Assembly: GCF_019263745.1 (NCBI RefSeq)
Contig: NZ_CP077107.1
Location: 434,001-498,000 of the forward strand
DNA: 64,000 nt
Reading direction: 5' to 3'
DNA from: Methanospirillum hungatei
GTDB taxonomy: Archaea; Halobacteriota; Methanomicrobia; Methanomicrobiales; Methanospirillaceae
Shown: positions 51,637 to 60,129 of the stretch, in pieces
Numbering within the stretch: position 1 is the first letter of the stretch
Layout: the number at the start of each line of letters is the position of its first letter
Position numbers and translations under genes: made by a program
The notes under the pieces: model-generated
Seen by the model: only the letters and a program-made list of their open reading frames with translations
Told to the model about the DNA's origin: nothing
Databases searched by the model: none

Positions 51637-52284
51637 TCAGTAATATGGGTTAAATCTTTTCTTTTTCCATTTCATTTCTTTTGTTTCAGGTTTCATCCAT
51701 AACTCCTGAAAAAGTCCCTGTTTTCGGAGCTCAAGATAACACCGCATACAGGCATCAACATCTGCAAGGGCATCATGAGCATCTTCAAAATCACTTTCAA
51801 AGAGATGGTGATGGAGTTCAGAGAGGGAGGGCCATTTGTATCCTCTTCGGCCGCCTTTCGGAGGCAATTTACATACATCTGTAGAACCTTTCATGGTGCA
51901 ATGATAGGGAAGCTTCAGAATTGGTGCATTTTGTTTTGCTCTGGCAAATTCCGATGTAACAATACTTCTGTCAAAAGAGACATTATGACCAACCAGAACA
52001 TCTGCCAAAACAACGGATTCTGAGAAAACAGATAACACATCCATGATTGGTTTACCCTCACTTTGTGCCTTTTCATTCGTAATCCCATGTACCTCGATGG
52101 CCGACTGGGGTATCACAAATCCTTCTGGTTTAATATAATGATTTTCACGAACCCGAACAGTTTCACCATCAGTCAATACCCAGGCAATCTGCACCATTCG
52201 GGGCCAGTATTCAGGATAATGAAAAGGATCTTTCTCTTCTTTCGGAAGTCCGGTTGATTCAATATCAAAGATGAGAAAATTCAT
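51637..52284 (-). CDS. 3'-5' exonuclease, DnaQ-like DEDDh family
   Basis: 215 residues with the exonuclease motifs FDIESTGLP (Exo I), VGHNVSFDRSIV (Exo II) and HDALADVDACMRCY (Exo III with catalytic His). It is likely a free-standing proofreading or repair/RNA-trimming exonuclease. No polymerase is fused. It lies upstream of nothing on its strand and stands alone. Confidence 0.88.
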   Translation of the reverse strand: MNFLIFDIESTGLPKEEKDPFHYPEYWPRMVQIAWVLTDGETVRVRENHYIKPEGFVIPQSAIEVHGITNEKAQSEGKPIMDVLSVFSESVVLADVLVGHNVSFDRSIVTSEFARAKQNAPILKLPYHCTMKGSTDVCKLPPKGGRRGYKWPSLSELHHHLFESDFEDAHDALADVDACMRCYLELRKQGLFQELWMKPETKEMKWKKKRFNPYY

Positions 52285-52329: not shown

Positions 52330-53007
52330 CTATTGGGGCTTCTCTAGTACCTCCCGGACCTTCTGAATGACCGACTCATGTGCAACCGCAAGCACATCAT
52401 CACCCGGATGTAGAATAATATTTCCACGTGGAATGACAAGCTGATTATTCCGGATTATTGCAGATAAGACACATTCCTGCGGGAGATGAAGATCTTTAAT
52501 CGCTTTTCCGGATGCAGAAGAACCACTGGTAACCTTGTTTTCAATAAGCGAGTAATCTCCGGTGCGAAGCTTTAACATCGTCATCATATCCCCAACTGTC
52601 ATTTCCCGAGCGATAAGATGAGCCATAAAATCAGCCTGGTTTACCGTAACATCAACACCCATTTCTTTCGTAAAAAGCCATGCATTTTTCGGGATATTCA
52701 CTCGTGCTATGGTTCTTTTTACTTTAAATTCAAATTTCGCAAGACTCGTTATTACCAGATTCGTCTCATCAAATCTGGTGACAGCAGCAACCACATCAAC
52801 CGAAGAGATACCTGCTTCACTCAAGTCATGAGGATTTGTCGGATTCCCTTCTCTCAAAAGAGAAGAGGAAAATTCCTTTCTTAATTTGTCTAAATCATTC
52901 TTATTATCTTCTAAAATCGTAACCCTATGCCCCTCCGTCAGGAGAATTTTCGCTAGGTACATTCCAACTTTTCCCCCTCCGGCTATCAACACCGACAAGA
53001 CCATCAT
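52330..53007 (-). CDS. TrkA-family protein (RCK domain), second copy
   Basis: 225 residues with an N-terminal Rossmann RCK domain (VLIAGGGKVGMYLAKILL) that would bind NAD(H) or ATP, and a C-terminal RCK_C domain (IENKVTSGSSASGKAI). TrkA proteins gate K+ channels or transporters. The start overlaps the preceding trkA stop (ATGATG), so the pair is coupled. No TrkH/KtrB pore gene lies nearby. Confidence 0.88.
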   Translation of the reverse strand: MMVLSVLIAGGGKVGMYLAKILLTEGHRVTILEDNKNDLDKLRKEFSSSLLREGNPTNPHDLSEAGISSVDVVAAVTRFDETNLVITSLAKFEFKVKRTIARVNIPKNAWLFTKEMGVDVTVNQADFMAHLIAREMTVGDMMTMLKLRTGDYSLIENKVTSGSSASGKAIKDLHLPQECVLSAIIRNNQLVIPRGNIILHPGDDVLAVAHESVIQKVREVLEKPQ

Positions 53008-53663
53008 CCACCTCCTGCTGCATGTATTCCATGTTTGAGACGATCAACAGAATGTTCCTCTACCGCAAGGTGGATAATATCACCTTTCTCCAAGGTAGTT
53101 CCGAGTGTAGGAATACTGGTTTTTCCTTTCCTGGTAAGTGAGATAACGATTATTTCTCCTGGGACCGTGAGATCTTTTACCTGATGTCCGGCAAGAAGGG
53201 AAGGAACATCATATCTGACAATCCCAACATCTCCATTTCCAATTCCATGAATAATATCAAGATGAGAAAAGGTTAAAAGTTCTGATATACGCTCGATTCC
53301 CAGTGAGACGTTTGTTACGGTCTGGATCCCGAGTTTATGATATAGCTCAGAATACCTGGGCTCATGAGTTCGTGCAATTACTTTTGGGACCCGGAACATT
53401 TGTCGTGCAGCACGAGCCACCACGATATTTATTGCATCATTTCCGGTAACTGCAGCAAGACCATCAGCTTTTGCAACTCCGCTCTCGTAAAAAGATTCTT
53501 TATCAAGAGCGTCATGTTCTCGAATGGTTCCGGAAAATCCCGGACCCAGCCTTTGAAATGATAAAGGATCATTATCCACTACTGTCACATCATGATGGGA
53601 TCTGACTAACCGGTGTGCCAATCCTGAACCCATCCGACCACACCCTATAACGATAAATTTCAT
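53004..53663 (-). CDS. TrkA-family protein (RCK domain), first copy
   Basis: 219 residues: RCK_N with GCGRMGSGLAHRLV and an acidic residue in VVDNDP, then RCK_C (VPSLLAGHQVKDLTVPG). Like its partner, it probably senses nucleotide. It overlaps both the P-type ATPase gene (ATGA at 53660-53663) and the second TrkA gene, so all three are translated from one message. Confidence 0.88.
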   Translation of the reverse strand: MKFIVIGCGRMGSGLAHRLVRSHHDVTVVDNDPLSFQRLGPGFSGTIREHDALDKESFYESGVAKADGLAAVTGNDAINIVVARAARQMFRVPKVIARTHEPRYSELYHKLGIQTVTNVSLGIERISELLTFSHLDIIHGIGNGDVGIVRYDVPSLLAGHQVKDLTVPGEIIVISLTRKGKTSIPTLGTTLEKGDIIHLAVEEHSVDRLKHGIHAAGGG

Positions 53664-56476
53664 GAGATTCCTCCAGATGAAGAACTAATTTTATGCCTTT
53701 CTATCATTCGCATGATACCTTTTCTGAATTCTTCAGCAATAAGCAAAGCTGGAGCCCATGCAAACAGAAATAACCAGTTTTGAGCTGGAAACGGTGCGGT
53801 TCCGATAATTGTCTGAAAAAATGGAACATACAGAATGATAAGAATAATTACCAGTTCACTTGCGATACCTAACCAGACCATTTTATTCGAGAACAGTCCC
53901 GCTGCCCGTATCGAACTACGCTCTGTCCGATGTGCTAACACGTTTCCTATCTGTGTTGTTACCACTGCAGCAAGGGCCATCCCAACCGCTGAATGATAAA
54001 GTGGACCCTCAGCTGGCAGATCAAAAATCTGACCCCAATACCCATTCGTCCAGTACTGGTAGAAAAATGCTGACATCACCGCAAGACTTTGAATCGGACC
54101 AAGCCAAAGATATGATCTCAGTAACAAGGACCGGGTAATTACATGCTCTTTAAGATTTCTCGGCGGTTTATCCATGATACCTGGTTCAGGAGGCTCTGAA
54201 CCTAATGCCAATGCCGGGACCAGATCTGTTCCAAGGTCAATTGATAAGATTGGCATGACATCTAGTGCCAGAGGTATCCTGGCTTTACTAAATGCAAATA
54301 AAATAAATGGAACTGCTTCAGGAGTATTGCTGGTAAAAATGTAACCTGTAAATTTTTTGATATTTGAATACACGGCACGTCCTTCCTCTATTGCATTTAC
54401 AATTGATGCAAAATTGTCATCAGTCAGGATCATATCTGCTGCTTCTTTTGCAACATCTGTGCCAGTTATTCCCATTGCAACACCAATATCTGCTTTTTTA
54501 AGAGCCGGTGCATCGTTGACTCCATCTCCGGTAACGGCTACAATCTGGCCGGTTTCTCGTAATATTTCAACTACTTTTAATTTGTGTTCTGGAGATACCC
54601 GTGCGAATATAACTTCTCCGGTAAGATGTCTTTTCAATTCCTCATCATTCATCTGATCAAGATCTGCACCAGTAATAATATGGGGATTTTCTGTCGTAAT
54701 GATTCCAATTTTTCGTGCAATACTCTTAGCTGTAAGGCCATAATCCCCAGTTATCATGATTATCCGGATTTGTGCATGATGGCATTTTTTCACTGCTTCA
54801 GATACTTCAGACCGTGGAGGATCCATCATGGCGATCAAACCAAGGAATATGAGATTATGTTCTACGTCTTCAGAATTTTCTATTTGATCATCGTCTGTGA
54901 TTTCTTTCATGGCAATTGCCAATACCCGAAGCCCTTGTTCAGCAAAGAAATCATTTACCGTAATAATTTCTGATCGAATATCTTCTGATATTGGATACAA
55001 CCTTGAATTCTTCATGAATGACGAGGTGAGATCAAGAACAGATTTTGGTGCACCCTTTAGGTACAATATCTGATCGGAATTCTTCAGATGAAGAGTACTC
55101 ATGAGTTTTCGTCGTGAATCAAACGGAAATTCACGGATACGTGGATATTGCGAATTCTCCTCTTCATAATGTACACCTAATTTTTCTGATGCTACAAGAA
55201 TTGCCGCTTCAGTCGGATCTCCAAGTATTGTCCATGGGTCTGTTTCATGGTCTGGTGGTATCAGGCGTGCATTTGAACACAATGATCCAGCGACACACAA
55301 ACGGTGTAAATCTTCAAGAAGGCCAGAATCTATATTAACCTCATCTGGAGTAATCGTTCCTTCTGGATTGTAACCTACTCCAGTCACTGAAAAAGATGCT
55401 CCGGGAATCCAGATTTTTTGTACCGTCATCTCATTTTGAGTAAGAGTTCCGGTTTTATCAGTACAGATAACAGATGTACATCCCAGTGTCTCTACAGCAG
55501 ATAATCGTTTTATGAGAGCATTTCGTTTCGCCATCCGCTGTGACCCCCGGGCCAGGGCGAGAGTTACGGTTGGTAATAGTCCTTCTGGGACAAATGCCAC
55601 AATCATACCCAGTGCAAAAATAAAACTAGATGCAAGCGTGACTGATGTGAGAGTTATAAGCATGAAAAAAAACAAGATACCAATACTCACCGCAACTATC
55701 GTTACCATTCTGGTAACATGAACCATCTCTTGTTGCAAGGGACTTTTTTCTTCTTCAATTCCCTGAGTCAGGTCTGCAACTTTTCCAAATTCTGTATTCA
55801 TCCCCGTGGCAATAACTACTGCTAGTCCTGTGCCTGATGCAACACTAGTACCAGCAAAAACAAGATTTGGATACTCAATCTTCGAAAAACCAGAATCATA
55901 CCATGGATCTGCAATCTTTTTAACCGGATGAGATTCACCAGTCAGTGTGGATTGATCAATCCGAAGCTCTGATGCTTCAATTAAACGACCATCAGCAGAT
56001 ATATGATCTCCTTCACTGAGGACCATAATATCTCCGGGAACTAAATCTTCTGCTTCAATATTTTTAGTTATGCCATCACGAATTACCCGCACATGAAGCG
56101 GTAATAACTGAACCAGAGCATCAGCAGCTTTCTCTGCTCTGAATTCCTGCCAGAAAGAAAATAATCCATTAATAAGATTTACCATCCAGACAGCAATGCC
56201 TAACTGTGGCATGTGGGCAATGAAAGCAACAATTCCCCCAACCCAAAGAAGAATTGCCATGAGATGTGTAAAATTTGCCAGAAATCGGATGTATATCGAC
56301 TTTTTCCGAGGTTTAATGAGAGAATTTTTTCCATACTTTTGTACTCGCCTGGCAGATTCATCACCAGTCAGTCCTGAAGATCGGGTTTCAAATTGAGTGA
56401 ATATTTCCGATATAGATGAAGAATAATTTAATTCAGATTGATCGTCAGATGGACGAACATTTGGATCACCTATCAT
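53660..56476 (-). CDS. P2-type cation-transporting ATPase
   Basis: 938 residues. P-type phosphorylation motif CTDKTGTLTQNE near residue 340, TGES at LTGESHPVKK, hinge GDGVNDAPALKKADIGVAMG, and ten or so transmembrane helices. The sequence is like Ca2+/Na+,K+ (P2) pumps rather than heavy-metal pumps: there is no CPC motif and no N-terminal metal-binding domain. The transported ion is not determinable; Na+, K+ or Ca2+ are candidates. It is the first gene of an operon with two trkA genes. Confidence 0.92.
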   Translation of the reverse strand: MIGDPNVRPSDDQSELNYSSSISEIFTQFETRSSGLTGDESARRVQKYGKNSLIKPRKKSIYIRFLANFTHLMAILLWVGGIVAFIAHMPQLGIAVWMVNLINGLFSFWQEFRAEKAADALVQLLPLHVRVIRDGITKNIEAEDLVPGDIMVLSEGDHISADGRLIEASELRIDQSTLTGESHPVKKIADPWYDSGFSKIEYPNLVFAGTSVASGTGLAVVIATGMNTEFGKVADLTQGIEEEKSPLQQEMVHVTRMVTIVAVSIGILFFFMLITLTSVTLASSFIFALGMIVAFVPEGLLPTVTLALARGSQRMAKRNALIKRLSAVETLGCTSVICTDKTGTLTQNEMTVQKIWIPGASFSVTGVGYNPEGTITPDEVNIDSGLLEDLHRLCVAGSLCSNARLIPPDHETDPWTILGDPTEAAILVASEKLGVHYEEENSQYPRIREFPFDSRRKLMSTLHLKNSDQILYLKGAPKSVLDLTSSFMKNSRLYPISEDIRSEIITVNDFFAEQGLRVLAIAMKEITDDDQIENSEDVEHNLIFLGLIAMMDPPRSEVSEAVKKCHHAQIRIIMITGDYGLTAKSIARKIGIITTENPHIITGADLDQMNDEELKRHLTGEVIFARVSPEHKLKVVEILRETGQIVAVTGDGVNDAPALKKADIGVAMGITGTDVAKEAADMILTDDNFASIVNAIEEGRAVYSNIKKFTGYIFTSNTPEAVPFILFAFSKARIPLALDVMPILSIDLGTDLVPALALGSEPPEPGIMDKPPRNLKEHVITRSLLLRSYLWLGPIQSLAVMSAFFYQYWTNGYWGQIFDLPAEGPLYHSAVGMALAAVVTTQIGNVLAHRTERSSIRAAGLFSNKMVWLGIASELVIILIILYVPFFQTIIGTAPFPAQNWLFLFAWAPALLIAEEFRKGIMRMIERHKISSSSGGIS

Positions 56477-57125: not shown

Positions 57126-57371
57126 TTATTCTTTCTCAGGCTCACAAGGAATGATCAAACTTACTCTTCCTACCTGACCACTGACTAATCTTACTTTAAT
57201 GCCATGAGGGTGAGTAGGTGATCTGGTCAATATATCCCGAACAATCCCACGAGTTGTTTTTCCACTTCGCTGATCCTGCTTTTGAATAATATCTACGCAC
57301 AGGCCGGTCCTGATTTGGGATCGATTTTTTCCATTCAATCCGGTTTTTAATATGGTTTCATGTTCTTTCAT
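57126..57371 (-). CDS. YwbE/DUF2196 family protein
   Basis: 81 residues, nearly all matching the small YwbE family: IRTGLCVDIIQKQDQRSGK, TRGIVRDILTRSP, HPHGIKVRLVSGQVGRV. The repeats suggest a small beta-barrel that may bind nucleic acid. The function is unknown. It is widespread in bacteria and some archaea. Confidence 0.9.
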   Translation of the reverse strand: MKEHETILKTGLNGKNRSQIRTGLCVDIIQKQDQRSGKTTRGIVRDILTRSPTHPHGIKVRLVSGQVGRVSLIIPCEPEKE

Positions 57372-58344: not shown

Positions 58345-60129
58345 ATGCTTCCAATAACAATTGATCAAATAATCGTCTTTTTGATCCTTTTTTTATCACT
58401 TGTTTTGTTTATTCAAGGCCGGTTCAGATATGATATTATTGCTCTCCTCGCATTATGTTCTGCAACAATCATCGGTGTTGTCCCTTGGGATCATGCATTT
58501 TCAGGATTTGCAAACCCTGCCATTATAACAGTGGCAGCTGTTTTGATAATCAGCAGAGGATTACTCAATGCCGGAGTTGTTGAGATGATCTCAGGATGGC
58601 TTCAAAAGGTAGGAAACCGTCCAACAATGCAAGTATCAGCCCTGACCGGACTTGTGATAACGCTTTCTGCATTTATGAATAATGTCGGAGCACTTGCCCT
58701 CCTCATGCCAGTTGGTATAAAAATGGCAAGAAACAGTGCCCTTCCGGTATCACTTCTTCTTCTTCCCCTTGCATTTGGCTCGCAAATTGGTGGAATGATA
58801 ACCCTCATTGGAACACCACCAAATTTAATAATTTCAGCTTTTCGGGCAGAACATCTCGGTCAGGGATATGGTATGTTCGATTTTTCACCTGTTGGCCTTG
58901 GAATTGCTCTTTTCTCCTTTGTATTTATTGGTCTCATCGGATGGCGTCTCATACCCAGACGAACTGGTTCAGGATCCAGAGATGATTTTTTCCATATTAA
59001 AGATTATATCACTGAAATTTATGTTCCGGAAGATGCAAAATTTGCCGGAAAACCACTCAGAGAGATATACAAAGCAACGAATGCAAAGATCACTATCATT
59101 CAGGTAATCAGAGGGAGTCATACCCGTCCGGTACCATTTATATATGAAAAAATTAAGATCGGAGATATCCTGATTGTCCAAGCTGCACTTGATGAACTAA
59201 AAAAATTTTTGAATATAACCGGTTTTCAGCTGGAAGAGAAAAAAATCACTCAAGATGGATTCATTCAAACCGGTGACTCACTTCTTATGGAGGCAACAAT
59301 CAGCCTTGAATCTCCGACGATTGGGCTGAATGTTAAAGATATCGACTTATGGTCAAGTTTTGGAGTATCTCTTATTGCAGTAGCACGACAAGGGATCCTG
59401 GTAAAGGAAAGACTCAAAGATATAAAATTTCAGGCTGGTGATGTTTTACTTCTCCAGGGAACAGAGGGGCTTTTAAAAGAGGCAATAAAAACATTAGGCT
59501 TTTATCCGCTCGCAGAACGAGGACTGAAGATTGGTGAACCAAAACGTATTGCAGAATCAATTGGGATCTTTGCTCTTGCTATCATCATTGCAGCACTTGG
59601 TCTATTGCCGGTTCAGATAATTTTCACCCTTGCTGCAGTAGTAATGGTTCTTATCCAGTTAGTCCCAATTCGGGAAATTTATGAAAGTATTGACTGGCCT
59701 GTAATCATTCTCCTCGGTGCATTTATTCCGGTTGGTCAGGCAATGGAAGATACCGGGGGAGCAGAATTGATTGCATCGACGTTATTATCGTTTCAAACTA
59801 TACTCTCACCGGTAATCCTGCTTGTGATTATCCTCATCGTGACCATGTTGCTTTCAGCTCTTATTAATAATGCAGCAACTGCTGTGCTGATGGCTCCGAT
59901 ATCATTTAGCATTGCAACCGGTCTTGGGGTTTCTCCTGATCCTTTCCTAATGGCCATCGTGATAGGAGCATCCAGTGCTTTTCTGACACCAGTCGGTCAT
60001 CAATCCAATGCCCTTGTAATGGGGCCTGCCGGTCTGAAATTTGGAGATTACTGGAAACTCGGACTTCCATTAGAGATAGTTATTGTTATTGTTTCGATAC
60101 CGGTGATACTTTATTTCTGGCCGATGTAA
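58345..60129 (+). CDS. SLC13/DASS-type transporter with two RCK_C domains
   Basis: 594 residues. About eleven transmembrane helices in two halves (1-220 and 395-594) flank two cytoplasmic RCK_C domains (about 215-290, YVPEDAKFAGKPL, and about 300-385). The anion transporter hallmarks are SAFMNNVGALALLMPVG and IGTPPNLIISA, with SALINNAATAVLMAP as the repeat in the second half. It probably carries sulfate, carboxylate or a similar anion with Na+. RCK_C insertion is common in archaeal and bacterial members. Confidence 0.9.
   Translation: MLPITIDQIIVFLILFLSLVLFIQGRFRYDIIALLALCSATIIGVVPWDHAFSGFANPAIITVAAVLIISRGLLNAGVVEMISGWLQKVGNRPTMQVSALTGLVITLSAFMNNVGALALLMPVGIKMARNSALPVSLLLLPLAFGSQIGGMITLIGTPPNLIISAFRAEHLGQGYGMFDFSPVGLGIALFSFVFIGLIGWRLIPRRTGSGSRDDFFHIKDYITEIYVPEDAKFAGKPLREIYKATNAKITIIQVIRGSHTRPVPFIYEKIKIGDILIVQAALDELKKFLNITGFQLEEKKITQDGFIQTGDSLLMEATISLESPTIGLNVKDIDLWSSFGVSLIAVARQGILVKERLKDIKFQAGDVLLLQGTEGLLKEAIKTLGFYPLAERGLKIGEPKRIAESIGIFALAIIIAALGLLPVQIIFTLAAVVMVLIQLVPIREIYESIDWPVIILLGAFIPVGQAMEDTGGAELIASTLLSFQTILSPVILLVIILIVTMLLSALINNAATAVLMAPISFSIATGLGVSPDPFLMAIVIGASSAFLTPVGHQSNALVMGPAGLKFGDYWKLGLPLEIVIVIVSIPVILYFWPM

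Follow-up and report, generated by a model that had tools for sequence, protein, structure and literature searches.

Why should two TrkA-type proteins be encoded directly behind a P-type ATPase? The question is raised by a locus in a 64,000-nucleotide stretch of the Methanospirillum hungatei genome (contig NZ_CP077107.1, positions 434,001 to 498,000), which as a whole is the window analyzed here. On its minus strand the gene for a 938-residue P-type ATPase (53660..56476), identified by open reading frame, Pfam and alignment as P2C (Na,K-ATPase)-like, is followed head to tail by the genes for RCK1 (219 residues, 53004..53663) and RCK2 (225 residues, 52330..53007), each with TrkA_N and TrkA_C. 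We consider it likely that these three genes specify a single K+-uptake machine, in which a P2C-like pump would be served by a dedicated, nucleotide-sensing, two-subunit RCK (TrkA/KTN) regulator. That the ATPase and the RCK pair form a functional unit is well supported, and we infer direct binding between them, together with the exported ion and the ligand.

A preliminary description of this DNA had the three genes overlapping end to end, through ATGA and ATGATG, and direct reading of the junctions bears this out, with a 4-nucleotide ATGA overlap at each. The ATPase stop codon TGA (53662-53660) overlaps the RCK1 ATG (53663-53661) in the first overlap (53660..53663, minus strand), while the RCK1 stop (53006-53004) overlaps an ATGATG (53007-53002 in the direction of reading, minus strand) which holds two candidate RCK2 starts. 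As the second methionine is the one conserved in the alignment of relatives, translation of RCK2 may in fact begin at 53004. GGAGG is found on the same strand 5' of the RCK1 start, within the ATPase gene (53670..53674), and again 5' of the RCK2 start (53011..53015). Coupled translation would hold the three subunits in ratio.

Conservation of the arrangement was analyzed first among 199 genomes of the class, which contain 19 ATPase places at ≥59% identity, 15 of them testable (contig edges cut off L005 and L017, no locus was obtained for G186 or G187, and RCK2 is truncated in L009 and L012). RCK1 and RCK2 lie downstream in the same order in 15/15 testable orthologues. No RCK gene was found within the approximately 1.5 kb examined at any of 13 places in class genomes where ATPase identity was 47% or lower. 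Two peptide patterns of the subfamily were then used to find relatives in species genomes, and among the best 80 of 523 the full triad is present at 73 loci, cut by a contig end at three and without the pair at four (77 testable); the 73/80 thus describes close relatives only. Triads occur in seven phyla of the NCBI taxonomy, namely Methanobacteriota, Chloroflexota, Thermodesulfobacteriota, Myxococcota, Deinococcota, Bacillota and Actinomycetota, and isolates carrying them include Methanospirillum stamsii, Meiothermus hypogaeus, Pelolinea submarina, Ornatilinea apprima, Acetobacterium species and Desulforhabdus. The cassette at one locus labelled Chloroflexi (L093) hardly differs from the Acetobacterium one, probably through a binning error. 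Because 73/80 related loci keep the same order and the genes around it are specific to lineages, the linkage is more than a coincidence, and the pair can be ruled out as a chance neighbor of the pump.

Spacing and descent are consistent with this. The gap between ATPase and RCK1 is exactly -4 in 30 of the 56 measurable triads and ≤30 nucleotides in 43, and that between RCK1 and RCK2 is ≤30 nucleotides in 54. When 67 of the 87 triads, those both full and distinct, are compared, the pairwise distances of the three proteins show correlations of 0.73-0.75, against a maximum of 0.19 in 500 permutations, although co-inheritance alone would give such values. In an ATPase tree of 133/135 rows (two short rows were omitted, and the class and species sets share duplicate rows), linked ATPases form one group with support of at least 96, four unlinked rows falling inside it and 36 unlinked sister rows, with no RCK gene nearby, outside. 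From this tree the pair appears to have been lost about three times within the linked clade. None of five distant ATPases encoded on plasmids (42-47%) has an RCK gene annotated next to it, and no fusion of RCK and ATPase was noticed among the examined loci, no systematic search having been made.

The distribution of TrkH and of RCK genes bears on whose regulator the pair is. The preliminary description noted that TrkA proteins normally gate TrkH/KtrB-like pores and that none is encoded here; this holds genome-wide, with 0 PF02386 matches in 3,393,136 bases, using a control which matched in 11/14 known genomes. TrkH is likewise absent from 10/10 genomes of the genus and is present in 168/199 genomes of the class. 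In 34 chosen genomes of the order Methanomicrobiales, where the preliminary description had proposed a survey of co-occurrence, cassette-type RCK1 (>360 bits) was found in 14/14 cassette genomes and 0/20 others, the best score in the latter being 101 bits. The six cassette genomes lacking TrkH contain only the two cassette RCKs at the threshold used, and 28/28 TrkH genomes carry another RCK gene (Fisher p 7e-7 against the six, without correction for kinship). Among 14 named genomes TrkH is missing from five, three of which have the cassette (Pelolinea, Flexilinea and C. aerotolerans). For this genome, a pair left over from, or belonging to, a lost or distant TrkH system is ruled out by the lack of TrkH in genome and genus and by the distribution of RCK genes.

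It could be argued that pair and pump are merely co-regulated for K+ homeostasis, the pair acting in trans on some other K+ transporter, either Trk-type or a channel with two or six transmembrane segments (2TM/6TM), so that the linkage reflects shared physiology. To our knowledge all RCK clients are channels, symporters or antiporters, and the Methanospirillum genome does have three Ion_trans_2 proteins; read by eye, however, these are two 6TM voltage-type channels and one pentapeptide-repeat protein. TrkH was found in the flank of only 1/80 loci, upstream of a complete cassette, so these trkA genes are not widely placed beside trkH or ktrB as they would be were the ATPase the incidental partner. 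That locus belongs to a Methanoregula genome, in which TrkH (L222:4324-5874; L058:5944-7494) lies on the same strand about 440 bases upstream, an arrangement that would suit a trans-acting pair. Against such a pair stand the absence of TrkH from this genome, from the genus and from 3/10 named cassette genomes in other phyla, the separate RCK present in all 28 TrkH genomes of the chosen set, and the lack of any widely recurring neighbor beyond the triad, the next cluster, an ABC-type ATPase, being found at 12/80 loci and scattered distances. We therefore regard action in trans as unlikely, and the central proposal of the preliminary description, a pair belonging to the pump, draws strong support from linkage across phyla, a single ATPase clade, the confinement of the RCK1 type to cassette genomes and the missing TrkH. 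Direct regulation and nucleotide gating of the pump, which it also put forward, are less secure.

With respect to the pump itself, the protein matches PF00690, PF00122, PF13246 and PF00689, as well as PF00702, and is a P-type ATPase by its catalytic D340 in DKTGT (340-344) and its actuator, N and P domains. Its best family model is TIGR01106 (Na,H/K antiporter P-type ATPase) at 634.7 bits, ahead of the Ca2+ models and below the curated cut-off of 946.1 bits, while KdpB (TIGR01497) scores 134 bits. Na,K-ATPase alpha chains are the top PDB sequences and also the top matches of the predicted fold (pLDDT, the model's confidence score, 77.7, with a weak stretch at 652-687), a model which served for family matching alone and not for geometry. 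Residue equivalences were taken from alignment with the Na,K-ATPase sequence of the PDB match, whose numbering we take to be of the pig type, in agreement with PMC8481561, where the numbers are shifted by 7. A PEGLL motif lies at 297-301, and the cation ligands are E298, S716, N717, E720, D747, D751, Q842 and E874. All six ligands of sites I and II (E327, S775, N776, E779, D804 and D808 in Na,K-ATPase) are identical here and are kept in 85-87 of 87 linked rows, a set including 11 duplicates (76 distinct); the equivalents of Q923 and E954 are kept as well.

These residues also bear on whether the pump might instead be a Ca2+ ATPase of the SERCA/PMR1 kind, with a pair that is incidental or Ca2+-linked. 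The score against TIGR01522 (PMR1 type), 627 bits, is close to that for TIGR01106 and both are under their cut-offs. SERCA has N796 at the position of D804, whereas both Asp ligands in M6 (D804 and D808 equivalents) are invariant in 87/87 linked rows, and Na,K-ATPase is the top PDB match by sequence and by predicted fold. A Ca2+ pump is accordingly the explanation to which we give the least credence, and K+ remains the likely imported ion, as judged from sequence and context.

The genomic context of cassettes and RCK pairs points to the same cargo. In one locus kdpD and kdpE lie directly upstream of the cassette (L125, 4137-7548), in another a DUF4118 histidine kinase and regulator (L113, 5458-7690) and in a third a regulator (L120, 206-922). 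Two Acetobacterium genomes have a second RCK pair beside TrkH (L220, L221), and in Ornatilinea apprima (L219:6040-9340) and Flexilinea flocculi (L218:6269-9603) RCK1-like and RCK2-like genes come immediately after one that encodes a KimA-like K+ symporter of the APC type, the Ornatilinea symporter matching KimA at E 2.7e-140. The two-gene RCK module is thus found on a third kind of K+ importer, and these kdpDE-type, TrkH and KimA-like contexts argue for K+ as cargo. The preliminary description's view of TrkA partners as TrkH/KtrB-like pores was too narrow, the KimA-like symporters not being TrkH pores. In Flexilinea (L094:2646-10811, L098:2571-10769) the cassette comes after a permease-like gene and the gene for another P-type ATPase, a divergent one; a fragment of a KdpE-like regulator lies about 7 kb upstream, and the whole forms a larger cation cluster. 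A Kup gene adjoins KdpA in the window's genome (G000:C1:585887-590135), with similar Kup/KdpA neighbors in G048, G073 and G102 and Kup/TrkH neighbors in several relatives.

RCK1 and RCK2 both score above the gathering threshold for TrkA_N (Rossmann) and TrkA_C, and full-length TrkA stands first among their profile matches. The best single-RCK chains are TM1088A for RCK1 (120 bits; residues 3-131 align to 10-138, an offset of 7) and TM1088B for RCK2 (122 bits), and the top structural matches of the RCK2 model (pLDDT 92.6) are RCK proteins, including TM1088A and TrkA. The nucleotide motif of RCK1 reads G7-C-G9-R10-M-G12 with D30, T73 and R98, and that of RCK2 G10-G-G12-K13-V-G15 with E33 and R102. 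Across 75 RCK1 sequences the AMP contacts are well kept (three Gly in 75/75, R10 in 70, D30 in 71, T73 in 68, R98 in 69); position 50 is Gly in 71/75 and His in the window protein, and position 52 is Gly in 54/75 and Ala in 14, the window protein among them. In 69 RCK2 sequences the three Gly and an E or D at position 33 are both found in 69/69. A tree with 16 stand-alone RCK rows was not relied on, six rows being probably wrong-frame open reading frames (branch of 3.3).

Such conservation, of the kind seen in gating rings, argues against the pair being soluble and nucleotide-binding but serving the pump as a chaperone or in its assembly rather than as a gate of its activity, as does the C-terminal TrkA_C kept in both subunits. 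Translational coupling would fit co-assembly, and the pump is found without the pair at four loci; even so, we think a chaperone improbable, and a regulatory pair is preferred.

By their sequences RCK1 and RCK2 resemble the two-subunit ring of TM1088A and TM1088B. The sections of PMC4380455 dealing with that system describe an octameric ring encoded by two overlapping genes, which serves the TrkH protein TM1089, and AMP found in TM1088A. As there, two adjacent RCK genes overlap stop to start and the nucleotide contacts are kept; the partner here is a P-type ATPase in place of TM1089, and RCK1 (219 residues) has a C-terminal domain which TM1088A (143 residues) lacks. Neither this parallel with known two-subunit RCK rings nor the likeness of the ATPase to Na,K-ATPase was in the preliminary description. 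RCK1 and RCK2 would accordingly be expected to assemble as a mixed ring like TM1088A/TM1088B, which could have as its ligand an adenine nucleotide (AMP, ADP/ATP or NAD(H)) or perhaps cyclic di-AMP (c-di-AMP), and which may contact the pump at its cytosolic domains or its membrane face, raising or lowering its turnover. ATP-driven uptake of K+ against export of Na+ or H+ would then track the energy or K+ state of the cell. In its most specific form, a nucleotide-gated P-type ATPase whose rate is set by a heteromeric RCK ring sensing AMP, ADP and ATP (or c-di-AMP), the same module having been attached in evolution to three K+ importers unrelated to one another (the channel-like TrkH, the symporter KimA and the ATP-driven pump), the proposal is tentative, and we hold its chances to be a little short of even. 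Many cassette hosts are anaerobes with little spare energy, so that throttling of an ATP-driven pump by adenylates would make sense; if it is true, a costly pump would be shut when energy falls, in cells near their energy limit.

Several observations weigh against the proposed unit of pump and regulator. The ATPase stands without the pair at L100, L109, L118 and L122, among the best 80 loci, and no cassette-type RCK1 was found elsewhere in those genomes, so the pump can do without the pair. As the sequence downstream of the ATPase extends for about 8 kb at the first three and 1.9 kb at L122, these losses are real as far as the assemblies go, an artefact having been partly checked. Five residues (F108, E155, Q347, S454 and F624) conserved in linked rows are changed in at least two of the four pair-lacking rows; the losses are too few to conclude on these as candidate docking residues, which were not used. 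In the cation sites, the site III ligand D926 is replaced by N845 (N in 69/87 linked rows, A in 10, I in 6, V in 1, X in 1), and N324 by F295. Phe occupies this M4 position in 87/87 linked rows and 4/4 unlinked members, Asn in the 36 sister rows, and so it marks the subfamily. The equivalent residue of gastric H,K-ATPase, Tyr340, affects the number of K+ accommodated, according to the part of PMC8481561 concerned with it. These two changes make 3Na/2K transport doubtful. The genome also has KdpA and three Kup, so that the pump is not its sole K+ route. Finally, RCK rings are four-fold in design and P2C pumps are not known to form tetramers; the symmetry of such a ring has no obvious match in the stoichiometry of the pump.

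Around the cassette, a DUF2196 gene (57126-57371) is the upstream neighbor on the same strand, about 650 bases from the ATPase gene, and an exonuclease gene (51637-52284) is the downstream one. Nearby, the opposite strand encodes an anion transporter of the CitMHS type (58345-60129) that contains two stretches of TrkA_C. A scan for sigma-70-type promoters gave no more matches than in shuffled sequence, and that consensus does not fit archaea.

Set beside known systems, the ATPase is like the alpha subunits of Na,K-ATPase and H,K-ATPase (P2C, TIGR01106) in its best family model, best PDB matches and site I/II ligands. In metazoans, the Na,K-ATPases depend on beta and FXYD subunits. Unlike Na,K-ATPase, the protein falls below the TIGR01106 cut-off and lacks the Ser-Tyr-Gly-Gln/Glu beta-assembly motif, with SYLW at the aligned place. 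Absence of that motif is also reported for prokaryotic members in part of the 2022 survey of PMC9609216, where prokaryotic alpha subunits are suggested to exist by themselves. As in Trk/Ktr (TrkH/TrkA, KtrB/KtrA), an RCK regulator accompanies a K+ import protein, although the genome has no TrkH or KtrB and the cassette's partner uses ATP hydrolysis. KdpFABC likewise takes up K+ by a P-type ATPase, and kdpDE-type regulators precede some cassettes; unlike it, the cassette has no KdpA-like channel subunit and its ATPase is P2, not KdpB. The preliminary description knew of no RCK-regulated P-type ATPase, and no account of one was found in the open PubMed Central (PMC) literature, subscription papers and preprints being outside that search. 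By term search, 'TrkA' does not appear in the main text of PMC7016017, on bacterial P-type ATPase neighborhoods, or of PMC9609216, on prokaryotic Na,K-ATPase alpha.

These data indicate that one prokaryotic Na,K-ATPase-like subfamily has two dedicated partners of the K+-channel-regulator class, across archaea and bacteria. The cultured hosts (Acetobacterium, Pelolinea, Meiothermus hypogaeus and Methanospirillum) make the idea testable. Should binding of the ring to the pump prove true, sensing by RCK proteins, so far a matter of channels and secondary transporters, would take in a pump driven by ATP as well, and this would suggest that pump subunits are to be found among many of the proteins that currently bear the name 'TrkA'.

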